From Gemmatimonadota bacterium (GTDB lineage: Bacteria; JAAXHH01), in contig JAPOYX010000289.1 in assembly GCA_026706345.1 (NCBI GenBank), forward strand, positions 1 through 39,039: a stretch of DNA of 39,039 nt, in the 5' to 3' direction. The notes below the pieces were generated by a model, which saw only the letters and a program-made list of their open reading frames with translations, was not told where the DNA came from and searched no databases. Numbering within the stretch: position 1 is the first letter of the stretch; every line of letters begins with the position of its first letter. Position numbers and translations under genes: made by a program. Positions 5,893 through 39,039 of the stretch are shown here, one piece after another.

Positions 5893-5916
5893 AATAGCTT
5901 CTGATGATGATTCAAT

Positions 5917-5980
5917 ATCACTATATGTGATTAGAATGTCGCCATGAGGATTGCTAGTTTCATAAAACCACGATAGCAAT
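5917..5980 (+). promoter_or_regulatory. Dyad symmetries upstream of the acyl-CoA ligase operon
   Basis: Two symmetric sites lie in the 104-bp gap after the LysR gene. At 5917-5931 ATCAC and GTGAT flank TATAT. At 5950-5980 a perfect 7-bp inverted repeat (ATTGCTA, TAGCAAT) encloses a smaller GTTT/AAAC pair. A 10-codon frame starts at the ATG at 5944 and stops at 5974-5976 inside the second dyad. These could be an operator and a leader hairpin. They are inferred from symmetry only. Confidence 0.35.
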
Positions 5981-5996
5981 AAGGAACCGGTTTTTT

Positions 5997-7589
5997 TTGA
6001 GCATTCAACAGGCCAGAACATTCCCCTACACCAGCCGGACGCTGCCCGGGATCCTCAAGCGCCAGGCGGCGCGTTACGGGGACAAGCCTTTGATAGCCTC
6101 GCCGGCCCGTCCAATCGCCTATGCCGAAGCGCCGGATATCGCCGCGTGCTGCGCGGGAAGGCTCGCGGCTGCCGGCGTGAAGGCCGGGGACCGCATCGTC
6201 GCGTACCTGTCGAACAGCATGGAATTTATCGAGCTCTGGTTCGGCGCGGCCTGGCTGGGCGCCGTGCTCACGCCCGTCAATACCGCGTTCCGCGGCGCGC
6301 AGCTACGCCACGCCCTGGCCCTGGTTGACCCCGTGCTCATCGTCACCGAACGCGAACAGCTTGCGTACCTGGCCGCCCCGGAGATTATGCCGGCATCCGG
6401 CGCACGGGTCTGGGTTACCGACTGCGCGGGCGGCGCGGAGCCGGATCACGGCCTGGAGGCCGGTCCCGTACCGGCGTTCGGGGCGCCCGTTGCCGCCCAT
6501 GAGGCGCAGCCGGGGGACACGGCAGCCATCCTGTTCACTTCCGGCACCAGCGGACCGTCCAAGGGCGTGATCTGCCCCCATGCCCAGTTCTTCTGGTGGG
6601 GCGTGCTGACCGGCGAGGCCCTGGAGATCACGCCGGACGACGTGCTGTTCACCGCCCTGCCGCTGTTTCATACCAATGCCCTGAATACCATCTGGCAGGC
6701 CTTGCTGGCCGGCGCCACCTATGCGTTCGAACGGAGGTTCTCCGCGTCGCGGTTCTGGTCCCAGGCAAGGCAGGCCGGCGCAACCGTCACCTACCTGCTG
6801 GGGGCGATGGTGCACATCCTGCTCAAACAAGCGCCGGGACCAGCCGACCGGGCGCACCGGGTACGCATCTGCCTGTCGCCGGCAACATCAAGGGAACTCG
6901 TGGAGCAGTTCCGCCGGCGCTTCGGCATTCGGTCTGTCGACGGCTACGGATCCACGGAGACCAACCTGGTCATGTCGAACGCGCTGAACGGCTACGCGCC
7001 GGGGACCATGGGCCGCGCCCACCCCGGTTTCGAGGTGCGGATAGTCGATGAAAACGACTGCGAAGTCCCCGCCGGCGCGCCCGGAGAACTGCTGGTGCGC
7101 CACACCGAACCGCACAGCATGGCCGGCGGGTATTTCGGCAATCCCGAGGCGACCGCGGACGCCTGGCGCAACCAGTGGTTCCATACCGGCGACCGGGTGA
7201 TGCGCGACGAACAGGGGATCTACCACTATCTCGACCGCATCAAGGACGCCATCAGGCGGCGCGGCGAAAATATATCGTCCTGGGAGGTGGAACAGGCGCT
7301 GCTGTCCCACCCGGACGTGGAGAACGCCGCCGCCATCGGTGTCCCCGCCGAGGTGGGTGAAGAAGACGTCATGGCGTTCATCGTCCCGCGCCGCGGCTGC
7401 AGGCCGCAGCCGGACGCCGTGACCCGGTTCCTTGAAGACCGGCTGGCACGGTTCGCCATCCCGCGCTACCTGGAATTCGTGGACGAACTGCCGATGACGG
7501 AGAACGGAAAAGTAAAAAAGTATATGCTAAGGGAATGGGGAGTAGGGGCTAAGACATGGGATCGCGATCGATGGACGGGGTCAGAGTAA
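5997..7589 (+). CDS. ATP-dependent acyl-CoA ligase (ANL superfamily)
   Basis: The 530-aa enzyme should activate a carboxylic acid to its CoA thioester through an acyl-adenylate. Adenylation motifs appear in order: TSGTSGPSKGV at 181-191, GYGSTE, WFHTGDRV, YLDRIKDAIRRRGENISSWEVE (the hinge region) and the C-terminal ENGKVKKY with the catalytic lysine. Overall it resembles the crotonobetaine/carnitine-CoA ligase (CaiC-like) group, but the substrate cannot be assigned. The likely start is TTG at 5997, 11 bases after AAGGA at 5981. The gene ends inside element A2, whose sequence encodes the final GSE and the TAA stop. It opens the cluster that runs through hyuB. Confidence 0.9.
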   Translation: MSIQQARTFPYTSRTLPGILKRQAARYGDKPLIASPARPIAYAEAPDIAACCAGRLAAAGVKAGDRIVAYLSNSMEFIELWFGAAWLGAVLTPVNTAFRGAQLRHALALVDPVLIVTEREQLAYLAAPEIMPASGARVWVTDCAGGAEPDHGLEAGPVPAFGAPVAAHEAQPGDTAAILFTSGTSGPSKGVICPHAQFFWWGVLTGEALEITPDDVLFTALPLFHTNALNTIWQALLAGATYAFERRFSASRFWSQARQAGATVTYLLGAMVHILLKQAPGPADRAHRVRICLSPATSRELVEQFRRRFGIRSVDGYGSTETNLVMSNALNGYAPGTMGRAHPGFEVRIVDENDCEVPAGAPGELLVRHTEPHSMAGGYFGNPEATADAWRNQWFHTGDRVMRDEQGIYHYLDRIKDAIRRRGENISSWEVEQALLSHPDVENAAAIGVPAEVGEEDVMAFIVPRRGCRPQPDAVTRFLEDRLARFAIPRYLEFVDELPMTENGKVKKYMLREWGVGAKTWDRDRWTGSE

Positions 7590-28209: not shown

Positions 28210-30147
<1,938 letters not shown>

Positions 30148-30304
30148 ACTGTTCCTCTCCGGTCTTGTTATTGTCGATAAGGGTGTAGTGTACATGATTC
30201 GCTGTCACTTTTTCGCACCTTATTTGTTAAAAAACAACCATTTCCGGCAGTTTACGGCGCGGTAAAAAAAAGAACGAAAAAAAGTTCGCCTTGCCGCTTT
30301 ATTT

Positions 30305-30335
30305 TTGTTCCTTTACGCTTTTTATATGCTATAGT
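30305..30335 (+). promoter_or_regulatory. Candidate promoter for the small membrane protein pair
   Basis: This lies in the AT-rich part of the acs/small-protein gap (30148-30431). TTGTTC at 30305-30310 and TATAGT at 30330-30335, spaced 19 bases, are the best -35/-10 pair I found. It would give a leader of about 90 bases that could fold, since AGTGGC at 30341-30346 pairs with GCCACT at 30380-30385. It is inferred from sequence only. Confidence 0.3.
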
Positions 30336-30431
30336 TTCCAAGTGGCTTGCCGTTGAATCCATGTCAAGGACAAGCGTGGGCCACTCGGCGGCGGGCCCTT
30401 CACGTAATAATAACCGTAGGAGGGAATAAGT

Positions 30432-30749
30432 ATGACTAGAATCGTCGTTGGATTAATCTTACTGGCAGCGATTGTCGAGGGTCTGGCTCCCGGCGCTGTT
30501 CCATCAGATCTGCTTCCACTGGCTATCGCAATTCTCGGCCTGGTCTATGGCTGGACTGCGGTTGATGCTGAAGATCCCGTCGCTTACCTGGCAGTCGCTA
30601 TTGCTGTAGGAGCAGCAGCGGGCGCTCTGGGCGCTATTCCCGCGATAGGTGCTTACATCGATGCTATCGTCGCTCAGGTCAGCAACGCACTTTATGCCGG
30701 TGTAATCAGTGTCCTGGTAGCGAGGACAATGAACCGGTTAAAAGGCTGA
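30432..30749 (+). CDS. Small hydrophobic protein, first tandem paralogue
   Basis: I do not recognise this family. The 105-aa protein starts MTRIVVGLILLAAIVEGLAP and has about three hydrophobic stretches: residues 4-20, 27-42 and 52-70. A further amphipathic region (GAYIDAIVAQVSNALYAGVISVLVART) ends in a short basic tail. It may be an integral membrane or self-associating protein. A strong ribosome site (TAGGAGGG, about 8 bases before the ATG) suggests high expression. A second copy lies 104 bases downstream with its own ribosome site and terminator. The first 23 residues of the two proteins are almost identical (one change). No neighbour suggests a function: acs is divergent, ispG convergent. 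Confidence 0.8.
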   Translation: MTRIVVGLILLAAIVEGLAPGAVPSDLLPLAIAILGLVYGWTAVDAEDPVAYLAVAIAVGAAAGALGAIPAIGAYIDAIVAQVSNALYAGVISVLVARTMNRLKG

Positions 30750-30772
30750 TATTCAGTCTGATCTACGCATTT

Positions 30773-30802
30773 GCCTCACCCGTCATGGGGGGCGGGTGAG
30801 GC
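30773..30802 (+). terminator. Terminator-like hairpin after first paralogue
   Basis: Perfect 10-bp arms (GCCTCACCCG and CGGGTGAGGC) enclose a 10-base loop and are followed by a short T-rich run (GTTTGTGTT). A near-copy follows the second paralogue, so the hairpin was duplicated together with the gene. Confidence 0.7.
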
Positions 30803-30853
30803 GTTTGTGTTAATGAAGCGCTGTACCGATAATAACAGTAGGAGTGAAATGAT

Positions 30854-31204
30854 ATGACTAGAATCGTCGTTGGATTAATCTTGCTGGCAGCTATCATCGA
30901 GGGTCTGGCTCCCGGGGCCGTACCGATGGACCTGCTTCCTCTGGCTCTCGTCGTTCTTGGCCTGGTCTATGGCTGGACCGCGGTCGATGCTGACGATCCG
31001 AGCGCTTACCTGATAGTCACCCTCGCTGTTGCCGCTGCTGCAACGATGCCGGGCGGTGGAGCAGGAGACGGAAACGGCGTGTTGGGGCTTATTCCCGCGG
31101 TAGGCGGACACCTCGACGCGATACTCGACCAGGGAGCCTCGGCGCTGTTAGCCGGTGTCGTCAGTGTTTTCGTTGCGAGGACTATAAGCCTGTTGCAAGG
31201 CTGA
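30854..31204 (+). CDS. Small hydrophobic protein, second tandem paralogue
   Basis: The 116-aa paralogue of the preceding gene has the same start (MTRIVVGLILLAAI), the same GLVYGWTAVDA centre and a matching end (VVSVFVARTISLLQG). It differs mainly by an 11-residue Gly-rich insert (around TMPGGGAGDGNG) between the third hydrophobic stretch and the conserved IPAVGG segment. The ribosome site TAGGAG lies before the ATG. DNA identity is very high over the first 20 or so codons and the upstream leader (ATAATAAC-GTAGGAG), then falls, which indicates an old duplication with a constrained N-terminus. The function is unknown; the membrane location is predicted from hydrophobicity only. Confidence 0.8.
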   Translation: MTRIVVGLILLAAIIEGLAPGAVPMDLLPLALVVLGLVYGWTAVDADDPSAYLIVTLAVAAAATMPGGGAGDGNGVLGLIPAVGGHLDAILDQGASALLAGVVSVFVARTISLLQG

Positions 31205-31230
31205 CATCCGGCCGGATATTTGATGTATTT

Positions 31231-31260
31231 ACCTCACCCGTCCCGGGGGGCGGGTGAGGT
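31231..31260 (+). terminator. Terminator-like hairpin after second paralogue
   Basis: Perfect 10-bp arms (ACCTCACCCG and CGGGTGAGGT) enclose a 10-base GC-rich loop. The hairpin matches the one after the first paralogue apart from compensating end bases and loop changes. It also lies just past the 3' end of convergent ispG, so it may stop transcription from both sides. Confidence 0.7.
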
Positions 31261-31284: not shown

Positions 31285-32511
31285 TCACCCAAAGCGGTTT
31301 TCGATGTAATCATCCACTATGGCCTGGAACTCGGCGGCGATATTATCGCCGCGCAGGGTGACGGTCTTTTTGCCGTCAACAAAGACAGGAGCCGAAGGGG
31401 CCTCGCCGGTGCCCGGCAGGCTGATGCCGATGTCCGCATGCTTGCTCTCTCCCGGCCCGTTCACCACGCAACCCATCACCGCCAGGTTCAGTTCCTCCAC
31501 GCCCGGGTATTTCTCGCGCCAGATCGGCATTTTGGTCCTGATGTAAGCCTGGATATTGTCCGCCAGTTCCTGGAACACGGTGCTGGTAGTGCGGCCGCAA
31601 CCGGGACAGGCGGTGACCAGGGGGGTGAATGAACGCAGGCCCATGGTCTGAAGCAGTTCCTGGGCCACGATCACCTCGGTAGCGCGGTCGCCGCCCGGTT
31701 CGGGCGTCAGGGAAATCCGGATCGTATCGCCAATGCCTTCCTGCAACAGGACACCCAGGGCCGCGGTGGAAGCAACAATCCCCTTGGAGCCCATCCCGGC
31801 CTCCGTCAGGCCCAGGTGCAGGGCATAGTCACAGCGCCCGGCCAGGTCCCGGTATACCGAGATCAGCTTCTGCACACCGCTCACCTTGCAGGACAGGATG
31901 ATCCTGTCCCGGGGCAGACCGATCTCTTCGGCTTTCTGCGCGCTGTTCAGGGCGGAGACGATGAGGGCTTCCTGCATGACGCTGTCGGCGTCCCGGGGTT
32001 CCGCCAGCTTCGCGTTCTCGTCCATCATGTGGGTGGCGAGTTCCTGGTCCAGGCTGCCCCAGTTCACGCCGATGCGTATCGGCTTGCCATACTCGATGGC
32101 CTTCTCGATGAGGGTGGCGAACTGGCTGTCGCGCTTCCTGCCGAAACCCACGTTGCCCGGATTGACGCGGTACTTGGCGAGCGCCTCGGCGCAATCGGGG
32201 TATTTCGTCAGCAACAGGTGGCCGTTATAGTGGAAATCCCCGATCAGGGGCACGTCGCAGCCCAGCGCATCCAGCCGTTCACGGATACGGGCAACCTGGC
32301 GCGCCGCATCCTCGTTATTCACCGTGATGCGCACCAGCTCCGACCCGGCGGCAGCCAGTTGCTGCACCTGCTTCACCGTCGCCACCACATCGGCAGTGTC
32401 GGTATTCGTCATGGACTGCACGACCACGGGCGCACCGCCGCCCACCGTAACCGGCCCGATACCAACCGGCACACTACGCCGCCTGCCAGAAATCTCCAAC
32501 TGATTAGTCAT
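31285..32511 (-). CDS. ispG: 4-hydroxy-3-methylbut-2-enyl diphosphate synthase (flavodoxin/ferredoxin)
   Basis: The 408-aa [4Fe-4S] enzyme of the methylerythritol phosphate (DXP) pathway reduces MEcPP to HMBPP on the way to IPP and DMAPP. The N-terminal TIM barrel starts with [23 protein letters not shown]. The three cluster cysteines are visible: Cys302 and Cys305 (ACPGCGRT) and Cys348 (GCVVNGPGE), plus the conserved Glu after them. It is slightly longer than E. coli IspG through an internal segment. It provides precursors for the squalene/hopanoid genes upstream, though it is not in their operon. Its promoter must lie in or beyond the nested repeat block at 32530-32670. Confidence 0.96.
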
Positions 32512-34599: not shown

Positions 34600-35877
34600 T
34601 CAGGGATTAAGTTGCGCCAGGATGCGCAGCAGTTCTATGCGGGTCTCTTCCAGGCGCAGGCGGCTGTTCAGCAGTTCGTATTCCACGTCCAGGGCGTCCT
34701 GGCGGGCTTCGATGTGCTGTACGAAGGTGGCCCGGCCCACGTCGAGCTTGTCGCCGGTCAATTCCACCACCTCTTTCATGTCGGCGACCGCGGCATCGAA
34801 CTCCTGCAGGGATTGAATCAAGCCCTGCAGCAGGTCCCAGTTGGAGCGCACGTCGATATCGACCATCTCCCGTTCCGCGGCCAGTTCACGGCGCGCGGTC
34901 TCCACCGCCAGCCTGGCCCCGCGCATCTGGGAGCGCTTGAGTCCGCCTTCATACACCGGCACCGACAGGTTGACGCCGCCAACGATGTCGCGGGTATCGA
35001 TCTGCCCGAAGTGGCCGGCGCTGGCGTTGACCTCCAGGCTCAGGGTCGGCCAGAGTTCGGCCTTGCGGTAATCCAGCTCACCCTCCGCGGCCTCCAGGCG
35101 CATGCGCGCCCGCAGCAGGGAGGGCGACCAGTCCTCCGCCCGGTTCAGCGCGTATTCGAGATTGGCCGGGGTCGCCAGTTCCATGCCGGCCAGGGAGGTG
35201 GGCGCCAAGTCGTCATGATCAGAGCCCGTCAGCCGCGCCAACTGGGCGCGGGCCACCCGGTAACGGGAATGCGCCTCGATGCGTTGGGCCCTGGCCTGGT
35301 GCAGACGGCGCAGCACTTCAAACAGCTCGGTGCGGTCCAGGGTGCCCAGTTCGATGCGGCTGCGCGCGGTACCCTCCAGGTCCCCCAGCAAGTTCTCGAA
35401 GTCGCGGCGGCTCTCGTAGATGCGTTCCCGGAACAACTGCTCCGAAAAGGCGCGGGCTACTTCAGCCAGGACTTCCTGGCGCGTTTGTTCAAAGGCGTAT
35501 TCCGCCTCGGCGATCTCGGCCTCGGCGCGCCGCTGGCGGCCTGCCAGGCGGCCGAAGGTGTACAGGTTCTGGGCGAAATTCAGCCTGCCCCGGTATGACT
35601 CGCCCTCGTAAACCTGTGTAAAGCGCGCCTCGCTGCGATTATGGCTGTACCCGCCGATGCCGGACACAGTGAGCGAGGGGCGCCGCATGCTGTTGGCTTC
35701 CGTCAGGCGCTCGCGCGCCTCGGCCACGCGGTTCTGCGCAGCGTGTATGCGGGCATCCCGCGCCTGGGTGTCAAGGAATGCCCCGGAGAGGGTGTACCCG
35801 TCTGCGCTGTCGGCGGCCGTGGCGGGAGGGGCGATGAAGAGGGGCAGGATGAGTAAATAAAGTGCGCTTCTAATCAT
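34600..35877 (-). CDS. TolC-family outer membrane channel of a type I secretion system
   Basis: The 425-aa protein has a signal peptide (about residues 1-22, cleaved after ATAA) and the two-repeat, long-helix pattern of outer membrane efflux proteins. Examples are RIHAAQNRVAEARERLTEA and LRARMRLEAAEGELDYRKAE, the starts of the two coiled-coil hairpins, and NLSVPVYEGG in the second half. It should form the trimeric channel-tunnel for export straight out of the cell. Its start overlaps the HlyD-type gene stop by 4 bases, so it is the last gene of the ABC-adaptor-channel operon. No obvious RTX-type substrate is in the window. Confidence 0.9.
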   Translation of the reverse strand: MIRSALYLLILPLFIAPPATAADSADGYTLSGAFLDTQARDARIHAAQNRVAEARERLTEANSMRRPSLTVSGIGGYSHNRSEARFTQVYEGESYRGRLNFAQNLYTFGRLAGRQRRAEAEIAEAEYAFEQTRQEVLAEVARAFSEQLFRERIYESRRDFENLLGDLEGTARSRIELGTLDRTELFEVLRRLHQARAQRIEAHSRYRVARAQLARLTGSDHDDLAPTSLAGMELATPANLEYALNRAEDWSPSLLRARMRLEAAEGELDYRKAELWPTLSLEVNASAGHFGQIDTRDIVGGVNLSVPVYEGGLKRSQMRGARLAVETARRELAAEREMVDIDVRSNWDLLQGLIQSLQEFDAAVADMKEVVELTGDKLDVGRATFVQHIEARQDALDVEYELLNSRLRLEETRIELLRILAQLNP

Positions 35878-37166
35878 TCTTCAACCATGGCCTTGTCCAG
35901 CATGTCGGTCAGGGGCTGGGTCAGGTACGACAAGGCGGTGCGGTCGCCGCCGGTGAACATGATGTCGACCGGCATGCCCGGGCCGATGGTGACGTCGCCC
36001 ATCTTCGCCATCTCTTCCTCGGGCACCACGATGCGGGCGATGTAGTAGGCCGTGCCGGCCTCCTGGTCGCTGAACGCGTCCGCGGAGACGCGCTCGACCT
36101 TGCCTTCCACCTGCGGCGTGGTGCGCCAACTGAAGGCGGAGAAGCGCAACCGGGCGGTCTGGCCGGGATACACGTTATCGACGTCGAGGGGGCGCACCTG
36201 CCCCTCCACCATGAGCCGGTCCTCGCTGGGGACGATGTTCATGATGGGGTTGCCCGGCGGGATCACCCCGCCCAGGGTGTGCACCGACAGGCCGATGACC
36301 TTGCCGTCCTGGGGCGCGACGATGGTGGTGCGGTCCAGCACGTCCGACACCGCGTTGATGCGCTCGCGGGTCTCGAACCATTGCTGCTGCGCCGCGGCGA
36401 TCTGGTCGGACGCCTCCGTCACCCAGCCGTTCTCGATCTGGAGGATCTCCTGGCGGGTCTCGCCGATCTTCACCCGGGTCGCGGCGATGTCCGCGACAAT
36501 GCTGCCGAGCCTGCCGACGTTCTGTTCGTATTCACGCTGCCGGCCGATGAGCACACCCTCGTCCACCAGTTGCTGTTCCTTCAGGGCAACCAGGCTTTCC
36601 AGGTCCTGCTCGATCAGGCCCTGCTCGCGCAGCAGCGCCCCCCGGCTCGCGTCCTGGCCGCGCACCTGTTCCTCAAGCTGGCTGATACGGTGGCGCAGGA
36701 TCTCGATCTGGCCGTGGTACTGGCGGCGCCGCACCTCGAACAGGTTCTGCTGCTCGGTGAGGATTTTCTCGATCACCGGGTCATCGCGCAGCGCCAGCAG
36801 TTCGCCGGAGAAAGTGATCTCCTCCTGTAACAGGCGTTCGGCATTGAGCCGGTCGATCTCCGCCAGCCGGCCGTAATAGCGGCTTTCCAGGAGTTCGAGC
36901 TGGGCGCGGTTCTGGGTCTCGCTCAATTCGATGAGGACGTCGCCGGCCTTGACCTCGCTGCCCTCGCGCACGTACAGTTTCTCCACGATGCCGCCTTCCA
37001 GGTGCTGGATGGTCTTGTGTTCCGTGTCCACCACCACCGTGCCCATGGCGACCACGCCCTCGGTCAGCGGCGCCAGCGTGGACCAGGCGAGGAACCCGCC
37101 CAGGGCAATGACGATGACGATGATGCCCCGGCGCATTACCACGTCGCGGGACATCAGGGCCTGCAA
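35874..37166 (-). CDS. HlyD-type membrane fusion protein of type I secretion (N-terminus frameshifted)
   Basis: As read, this 430-aa adaptor links the inner membrane ABC exporter to the TolC channel. It has one membrane helix (about residues 14-32, RRGIIVIVIALGGFLAW), a lipoyl-like half motif EGGIVEKLYVREGSEVKAGDVLIEL, a long coiled coil and a beta-barrel ending. The listed start is TTG at 37166. The natural start is probably ATG at 37374 (MATEAKQSPVNLALGTVTDW), but a 52-bp tandem duplication at 37213-37316 shifts the frame by one, so that start no longer reads into the body. A functional protein would need internal initiation (TTG at 37166 or the ATG four codons on). The missing piece is only the short cytoplasmic tail. 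Confidence 0.8.
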   Translation of the reverse strand: MQALMSRDVVMRRGIIVIVIALGGFLAWSTLAPLTEGVVAMGTVVVDTEHKTIQHLEGGIVEKLYVREGSEVKAGDVLIELSETQNRAQLELLESRYYGRLAEIDRLNAERLLQEEITFSGELLALRDDPVIEKILTEQQNLFEVRRRQYHGQIEILRHRISQLEEQVRGQDASRGALLREQGLIEQDLESLVALKEQQLVDEGVLIGRQREYEQNVGRLGSIVADIAATRVKIGETRQEILQIENGWVTEASDQIAAAQQQWFETRERINAVSDVLDRTTIVAPQDGKVIGLSVHTLGGVIPPGNPIMNIVPSEDRLMVEGQVRPLDVDNVYPGQTARLRFSAFSWRTTPQVEGKVERVSADAFSDQEAGTAYYIARIVVPEEEMAKMGDVTIGPGMPVDIMFTGGDRTALSYLTQPLTDMLDKAMVEE

Positions 37167-37212
37167 TTCCTTCTTCTCGTCCGCGGCGTCCTGGGACAGG
37201 CGGACTTCGTCT

Positions 37213-37316
37213 TCCTTCGGCCCGCGCAGCAGGGCGGCGGCGTAGCCGTACAGGCGCTGCAGCCTCCTTCGGCCCGCGCAGCAGGGAAGCGGCGTAGCCG
37301 TACAGGCGCTGCAGCC
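37213..37316. repeat. 52-bp tandem duplication causing a +1 frameshift
   Basis: Two direct copies (37213-37264 and 37265-37316) differ only at two adjacent bases (CG versus AA). Since 52 is one more than a multiple of three, the second copy throws the HlyD-type gene out of frame. With either copy removed, the ATG at 37374 would read through LYGYAA-LLRGPKEDEVRLSQ into the membrane helix and the rest of the protein. Confidence 0.9.
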
Positions 37317-37374
37317 AGTCGGTTACCGTACCGAGCGCCAGGTTAACAGGTGATTGTTTTGCTTCTGTTGCCAT
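37317..37374 (-). pseudogene. Detached 5' end of the HlyD-type gene
   Basis: The ATG at 37374 starts MATEAKQSPVNLALGTVTDW, a plausible cytoplasmic N-terminus for a PrtE/HlyD-type adaptor, and an A-rich ribosome site region precedes it. It reads into the duplication and then into a wrong frame. It should be joined to 35874-37166 if the duplication is a sequencing or assembly error or a recent mutation. Confidence 0.6.
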
Positions 37375-37394
37375 TGTTTGTTTCTTGGATATGT

Positions 37395-37506
37395 GGGGCC
37401 AGAGTAAAAATTCTTCGAATTTCTTACTCTGACCCCTGTGCTTCACGGATAGACAGGACTCGCGGGGTCGGAGTAAGAATTTCGTTAGAAATTTTACTCT
37501 GACCCC
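37395..37506. repeat. Paired palindromes A8 and A9
   Basis: A8 (37395-37436, first arm with one change, GGGGCCAGAG) and A9 (37464-37506, first arm GGGGTCGGAG) are separated by 27 bases with GGATAGACAGGACTC. Order, subtypes and spacer match the A6/A7 pair. The pair fills most of the 163-bp gap between the ABC exporter gene and the adaptor gene, inside one operon, so it may weaken or stabilise the downstream transcript. Confidence 0.9.
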
Positions 37507-37537
37507 AGGTATATCCAGGCAAATCCAGGTATTTCAA

Positions 37538-39039
37538 CTATTGTGCCTGCGCTGTCTTCTCGGCGGCGGCCGGGGCCGGGCGCATGAAGCGCTTCAGGAC
37601 TTCTTCGCGGGGGCCGCTCTCCAGCAGGACGCCTTCCTTCAGGACCAGTACGTTTTTGACCATCTGCAGCAGGCGGAAGTTGTGGGTCACAATCAGGGTT
37701 GTGACGCCGCGCTTGGACAAGGCAAGCAAGGTATTCCTGAGCGCCATCTCGCCGTCCGTGTCCAGGTTCGCGTCCGGTTCATCCAGTATTATCAGCGCCG
37801 GGTCGCCGTACAAGGCCCGGGCCAGGGCCACGCGCTGGCGCTGCCCGGCGGACAGGTTGGCGCCGCCGGCCGCGATGGGCGTATTGTAGTTCTCCGGCAG
37901 GCGCATGACCATGTCGTGGCAATTCGACTGCTGCGCGGCGGCGAGCACCGCGTCGTTGTCCGGTTCGGACAGGCGGGCGATGTTCTCGGCAACCGTGCCT
38001 TCGAACAGTTCCACCTCCTGGGGCAGGTAGCCCACGTGGCGGAAACGGCTCTCGGTGGGCCAATCGCCGATGGCGGCCCCGTCCAGGCGCACCACCCCGC
38101 CCTGCGGGCTCCACACACCCACCATGAGGCGGGCCAGGGTGCTCTTGCCGCTGCCGCTGGGGCCGATGAGCCCGGTGGAAGAACCCGGTTCCAGGGTAAA
38201 TTGCACGCGCTTCAATGTCAGCTTGGTCGTTCCGGGGGGCGCAGCAGACACGCCCTCCACTTCCAGTTTGCCGGTGGGCCGGGGCAGGCTCGTGGCGCCT
38301 CCGTGCCGTTCCGGCGGCGCGTTCGTGAGCAGGTTATTGAGGCGGCGCCAGGACTGGCGGGCGGACATGAACCCGCGCCAGGCCGATATGCCCTGCTCGA
38401 TGGGGGCCAGGGCGCGGCCCAGGATAATGGAGGCGGCGATCATCATGCCCGGCGTGATCTGCTGCTTGAGCACCAGCCAGGCGCCCATGCCGAGGATGCC
38501 CACCTGCACGATCTGGCGGCCGGACTTGGACGCAGCCAGCAGCATGCTGATGCGGGAGCCGCCGCGGGCCTGGAACGCGACGCCGCGGTCGTGCTTGTCG
38601 CGCCAGCGCCTGCGGAAACCCTCGAACATGCCCATGGCCTCCAGTACGTCCGCATGGCGCAGGCTGCTCTCGACGAAACGGTGGGATTCGGCGGTGTGCT
38701 CGGAGGCATTGCGCAAGGGTCCGCGCGAAGTCCATTCCGTCAACAGGGCAATGAACAGGATCAGCAACGCGGCGAAGGTCGCAAAGAAACCCAGCCAGGG
38801 GTGGATGATGAAAATCGCGGCGATGAATACCGGCGCCCAGGGGGCGTCGAAAAAGGCAATCGCGGGCGGGCTGGAGATGAACTGGCGCACCGTATCCAGG
38901 TCGCGCACGGGCTGGTTGGCGCTCTGCCGGAAGCGCTGCAGGCTGCCGCGGAACACGCCGGACAGCACGTCGTCCAGCACTTCATAGTTCAGGAACAGGG
39001 CGATGCGCGCCATCAGGCGCTGGCGCACCCAGTCCAGCA
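37538..39039 (-). CDS. Type I secretion ABC transporter, PrtD-like (5' end cut by window)
   Basis: About 500 residues of an inner membrane exporter with fused membrane and ATPase domains are present. The transmembrane part includes DAPWAPVFIAAIFIIHPWLG, highly typical of PrtD-type exporters. The ATPase has Walker A (GPSGSGKST), the Q-loop YLPQ, the signature LSAGQRQRVALARAL, Walker B (LIILDEPDANLD) and the His switch (THN). The frame is open to the right edge (LLDWVRQRLMARIA), so the first membrane helices, perhaps 70-90 residues, lie outside. There is no N-terminal C39 peptidase visible, matching exporters of proteases, lipases or S-layer proteins with C-terminal signals. It heads the secretion operon with the adaptor and channel. 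Confidence 0.94.
   Translation of the reverse strand, partial: LDWVRQRLMARIALFLNYEVLDDVLSGVFRGSLQRFRQSANQPVRDLDTVRQFISSPPAIAFFDAPWAPVFIAAIFIIHPWLGFFATFAALLILFIALLTEWTSRGPLRNASEHTAESHRFVESSLRHADVLEAMGMFEGFRRRWRDKHDRGVAFQARGGSRISMLLAASKSGRQIVQVGILGMGAWLVLKQQITPGMMIAASIILGRALAPIEQGISAWRGFMSARQSWRRLNNLLTNAPPERHGGATSLPRPTGKLEVEGVSAAPPGTTKLTLKRVQFTLEPGSSTGLIGPSGSGKSTLARLMVGVWSPQGGVVRLDGAAIGDWPTESRFRHVGYLPQEVELFEGTVAENIARLSEPDNDAVLAAAQQSNCHDMVMRLPENYNTPIAAGGANLSAGQRQRVALARALYGDPALIILDEPDANLDTDGEMALRNTLLALSKRGVTTLIVTHNFRLLQMVKNVLVLKEGVLLESGPREEVLKRFMRPAPAAAEKTAQAQ

Follow-up and report, generated by a model that had tools for sequence, protein, structure and literature searches.

A conserved tandem pair of genes for paralogous small membrane proteins behind a conserved leader RNA, possibly encoding a two-subunit complex

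Introduction

Among the small multi-helix membrane proteins, Fluc (CrcB) proteins are at times found as tandem pairs behind a fluoride riboswitch. The paired SMR proteins form heterodimers, some of them behind guanidine riboswitches, and where the paired SMR subunits are antiparallel they carry opposite Lys/Arg bias (PMC9574504).

Here, we report on a tandem pair of genes for small hydrophobic proteins in a stretch of bacterial DNA of 39,039 nucleotides, which is referred to as a whole as the window. In our judgement there is an even chance that the pair forms one dicistronic operon, that its two paralogous products are subunits of a small complex in the inner membrane, and that the leader controls its output.

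Results

A preliminary description of the window had reported two genes at this place, with products of 105 and 116 residues, and our analysis bears this out (Table 1). Both copies start with ATG and have good Shine-Dalgarno sites, and comparison of the orthologues in L030, L031 and the window gives dN/dS values of 0.11–0.23 for copy 1 and 0.09–0.14 for copy 2. By these sequence-based measures, both ORFs are genuine genes under purifying selection. Their products are 72% identical and very hydrophobic, with a mean hydropathy of 1.2–1.3 (1.1–1.4 at the widest), and dN between the two copies within one genome is 0.20–0.22. The other surrounding genes are fabA and that of a beta-ketoacyl synthase. 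Farther along the window, at 34600–39028 on the minus strand, genes for an outer membrane efflux protein, an HlyD-type protein and an ABC transporter are arranged like a type I secretion operon.

Table 1. Positions of the gene pair, its signals and its flanking genes in the window
Feature	Position	Strand	Remarks
acs	28210-30195	minus	flank of the gene pair; named by Pfam
Extended -10 promoter-like box	30327..30335	+	TGC-TATAGT; TGTGCTATAGT in other genomes; no clear -35
Conserved 5' leader hairpin RNA, 56 nt	30342..30397	+	begins near the inferred transcription start; covariance model R1
Shine-Dalgarno AGGAGG, copy 1	30418..30423	+	sequence and alignment with relatives
Copy 1 gene	30432..30749	+	105-aa hydrophobic membrane protein; predicted N-in/C-in
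Intercistronic hairpin	30772..30803	+	13 pairs, tail TTTGTGTT; weak terminator or attenuator
Shine-Dalgarno AGGAG, copy 2	30840..30844	+	sequence and alignment with relatives
Copy 2 gene	30854..31204	+	116-aa paralogue; Gly-rich loop at about residues 65-77
Hairpin 3' of copy 2	31231..31260	+	between convergent copy 2 and ispG; arms 93% complementary; without U-run
ispG	31285-32511	minus	other flank, convergent with copy 2; named by Pfam

The assembly that contains the window has an ispG and an argS of its own, which are only 38% and 34% identical, respectively, to those on the window contig, and its genus relatives carry only ispG of the 36–38% type. The window DNA, on the other hand, is about 97% identical to L029, from the MAG RHO3_bin_19, which is named Gammaproteobacteria. 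The presence of a second, diverged ispG and argS, together with this identity to L029, indicates that the contig was misbinned, and caution is required in that it is foreign to its assembly. Judging from these sequences, it probably comes from a sponge-dwelling gammaproteobacterium. The link to sponges is drawn from the MAG name prefixes, with RHO, CAR and APA fitting the species sampled in PMC8163846.

Within L029's order, the family is present in 6 of 53 genomes with one or two copies each. The pair of the window recurs in L029, L030 and L031, and a single copy is present in L028, L032 and L047; the genes lie beside acs and/or ispG. In L028 (positions 5906–6351), the copy 1 leader is directly joined to a copy 2-like gene, a recombination-like single-copy state unless the assembly is chimeric. 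L029's genome holds exactly two family copies; that genome aside, the class sample yielded only four weak matches among 369 genomes. Two of these (L068 and L071) were rejected, as they lie inside a longer membrane protein of 194 residues with a different layout. In the assembly's own small phylum, the family occurs in 12 of 16 genomes, all of one genus and with two adjacent copies each, the assembly's own genome being scored without the misbinned contig; this pair, which differs from that of the window, is flanked by phoR and ppk in each of the 12. The preliminary description had also raised the prospect of three or more copies in relatives. Three or more were not found in any relative, and the four copies apparent in the assembly are an artefact of the misbinned contig.

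Outside the pairs, L074 (G001, from the assembly's own phylum) is likely to be a distant relative on its sequence scores (E 2.5e-9 with a broader profile; hhalign probability 96%), and L069 and L070, from two genomes of the gammaproteobacterial class, are possible ones (E 1.4e-4; hhalign probability 52% over 44 columns). All three resemble the family in length, in hydrophobic layout and in an LG(L/V)VxG ... FL...A(L/I) core, but identity is only about 30%, a second copy was not seen in those loci, and the L069 link spans only the middle of the protein, with weak scores. Similar short proteins may occur in archaea as well.

The pair in the window had been described as a duplicated expression cassette. 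A direct repeat of 213 nt (81% identical, spacing 422) does start at 30407, just 5' of the ribosome site, and again at 30829, and a hairpin repeat of 36 nt (89% identical) follows at a spacing of 458, such that ribosome site, gene and hairpin are all repeated; the leader and the extended -10 box, however, stand before copy 1 only. From the ATG on, the first 29 bases are identical in both window copies. In the gammaproteobacterial pair, pS over codons 1–24 is 0.25–0.31, compared with 0.44–0.53 in the remainder. Since the likeness of the 5' ends extends to synonymous sites, protein function alone explains it less well than would gene conversion, a recent exchange or a constraint on the RNA. This likeness is absent from the pairs of the other phylum, with pN of 0.35–0.43 over the same part. 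Thus, the conservation of the first 23 residues noted earlier is real in this duplication, where they are near-identical, but is not a trait of the family. Similarly, the Gly-rich insert said to separate the copies is indeed present in copy 2, but it is a variable loop, with intermediate inserts in some first or single copies.

In the phylogenetic tree, the rooting of which is arbitrary, the first copies and the second copies of each lineage form groups, several of the forks being moderately supported. The gammaproteobacterial copy 2 forms a clade of its own (support 100/100), and in the other phylum the two clades are maintained in 12 of 12 genomes; the gammaproteobacterial copy 1 does not separate cleanly, as the jk copy 1 groups with the single-copy CAR2 gene with modest support. 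Given that the copies fall into separate clades in each lineage, the duplications look independent in the two phyla, and an independent duplication in two lineages is the simplest reading of the sequences.

These data bear on whether copy 2 could be a plain spare of a homo-oligomeric protein, kept for output and without any partnership, which we regard as rather unlikely. Such a role would agree with the existence of single-copy relatives (L032, L047 and L033), and with L028, where recombination within the 29 identical starting bases seems to have removed one copy. Selection for dosage alone, however, would be expected to leave homogenised copies, and these differ by 28% of residues, stay distinct between species, and hold to the clades described above. 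We therefore favor two distinct subunits, although L047, L032 and L028 manage with one copy each, which speaks against an obligatory partner in the gammaproteobacterial lineage.

The statement that the family cannot be placed is upheld, in that searches of Pfam, NCBIfam, PHROGs and PDB sequences gave no credible family match, and no published work on the family was found in the literature. MerC reached 13.9 bits against a Pfam gathering cut-off of 27.6, and neither window protein has a cysteine. The best PHROG match to phage holins (copy 2, E 0.034) is weak. Together with the small size, the hydrophobicity, the structured leader and the tandem copies, it is what would recommend a hydrophobic toxin or holin-type pore, derived from a type I toxin-antitoxin system or a prophage remnant. 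We consider this very improbable: the surroundings are not those of a phage, the neighbors are core chromosomal genes (acs and ispG; phoR and ppk), viral contigs contain no family relative that we could find, and for the distant relative L069 none were found among phages or plasmids. The strong purifying selection and the stable position also speak against a toxin or holin, as does the result of the promoter scan described below.

All 68 Lys/Arg residues of 19 family members are located within the first 8 or the last 14 residues, and both copies are alike in this regard. By the positive-inside rule, both ends would thus be cytoplasmic and the number of membrane crossings even. Four helices per protein are most likely, which fits the low-confidence models. 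The AlphaFold models are poor (mean pLDDT of 55 and 52), which leaves both the helix count and the assembly without structural backing; the earlier suggestion of two subunits of a membrane assembly draws its support indirectly, from the diverged yet conserved pairs in two phyla.

The charge pattern also bears on a further alternative, namely an antiparallel heterodimeric small transporter like the paired SMR exporters or Fluc, for which the leader would act as a riboswitch switch. The proteins are of similar size, the tandem pairs arose by repeated duplication, and the leader is structured. SMR subunits all conserve a membrane-embedded glutamate in their first helix; of the proteins compared here, both window copies have a Glu in this helix (E16), and the copy 1 proteins of the other phylum carry Gln there. 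Overall, we find this alternative improbable. The same terminal Lys/Arg bias is seen in all copies, rather than the opposite bias of paired SMR subunits or the lack of bias of single ones, making an SMR-type antiparallel pairing unlikely. There was no hit to Pfam SMR (PF00893) up to E 1, and none to Pfam Fluc/CrcB (PF02537); with hhalign, the probability of a relation is 0.1% for EmrE and 0.2% for E. coli CrcB. In Rfam 15, the leaders match neither the fluoride (crcB) nor the guanidine riboswitch.

The extended -10 box is kept 5' of copy 1 or of the single copy in the window, L028, L030, L031, L032 and L047, and is absent 5' of copy 2. A general promoter scan, covering sigma-70 consensus sites only, does not list this box and finds no sigma-70-type promoter on either strand; given that coverage, a promoter inside copy 1 is possible. 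Since the promoter box and the leader stand 5' of copy 1 only, copy 2 is probably expressed by read-through from the copy 1 transcript. The independent terminators and cassettes proposed earlier are not supported, given that the hairpin 3' of copy 2 fails the terminator scan and that copy 2 has neither promoter box nor leader. The intercistronic hairpin, with a modest T-rich tail, passes the scan and has equivalents in L030 and L031. Terminator-like matches are no more frequent in this region than expected by chance (2 versus 1.4).

The 56-nt leader, with variable flanks, precedes copy 1 and the single-copy genes of L032 and L047. Model R1 gives one strong match per genome, just 5' of the gene, in all six gene-carrying genomes; elsewhere among the order's 53 genomes, searched with stricter filters that may lose weak matches, there is a single near-threshold match (L087, E 0.0095). 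Pairing is kept in 97.8% of cells, compared with 37–50% for slid controls. Because the changes are one-sided, covariation proper is not demonstrated for this leader; its folding energy is modest (z -1.7), and it has no match in Rfam 15. A leader peptide, read from an ATG at 30361 over a frame of 22 codons that closes upstream of copy 1, was rejected as it lacks a ribosome site, and in the aligned sequences of L030, L032 and L047 the frame is shifted or ends elsewhere.

In the other phylum, copy 1 of the phoR/ppk pair is preceded by a -35-like TTGACA and by a conserved leader RNA of about 245 nt (L003:1242-1492), and copy 2 by a short intergenic region only. Pairing in this leader is kept in 97.4% of cells, four pairs are changed on both sides, and the covariation score exceeds that of all 500 shuffles. 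It ends in CTCCTC(T/C)AGGAGG, a sequence that allows pairing between the ribosome site and the preceding CTCC; as read from this sequence, the terminal hairpin can mask the ribosome site. The model of the gammaproteobacterial leader does not match it, the two leaders being unrelated, and neither does any family in Rfam 15.

Discussion

The reading as a dicistronic operon for two subunits starts from what is demonstrated, namely the genes, their purifying selection, the conserved pair with its leader, and the charge pattern. Transcription would begin just 3' of the extended -10 box, which is about 90 bases upstream of the copy 1 gene, and the stability or translation of the transcript would be set by the conserved hairpin leader at its 5' end. 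Copy 1 would be made first, and the intergenic hairpin would let only part of the transcripts pass, such that copy 2 becomes the minor partner. Each protein would have both ends in the cytoplasm and a last long helix that reaches the C-terminus, and its acidic residues would lie in loops or at the ends of helices. The copies would then come together in parallel orientation to form a hetero-oligomer, in which the Gly-rich loop would give copy 2 its special role. Of these steps, we infer co-transcription, partial termination, hetero-assembly and the helix number.

A broader and more doubtful proposition is that of an uncatalogued membrane system, in which an orphan family twice independently became a two-subunit complex and twice gained a leader, possibly a new riboswitch that senses what the complex handles. 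To date, most of its occurrences are in a single small phylum and in MAGs whose names are of the sponge type. It is rare for an orphan membrane protein to offer a functional clue such as a well-conserved leader RNA linked to its gene alone, which can be tested with ligands; should the leaders sense a small molecule, the substrate of the family would be named. That two phyla keep the same pairing behind unrelated leaders suggests that a controlled output is important to these bacteria.

Compared with known systems, the family is like Fluc/CrcB in its small size, its tandem pairing and its leader, but not in sequence or in a match to Rfam crcB. Unlike the paired SMR proteins, to which it has no sequence relation, its two copies share the same charge bias; what it has in common with them is a length of about 105–115 residues, several predicted helices, tandem and probably co-expressed pairs and repeated duplications (PMC9574504).
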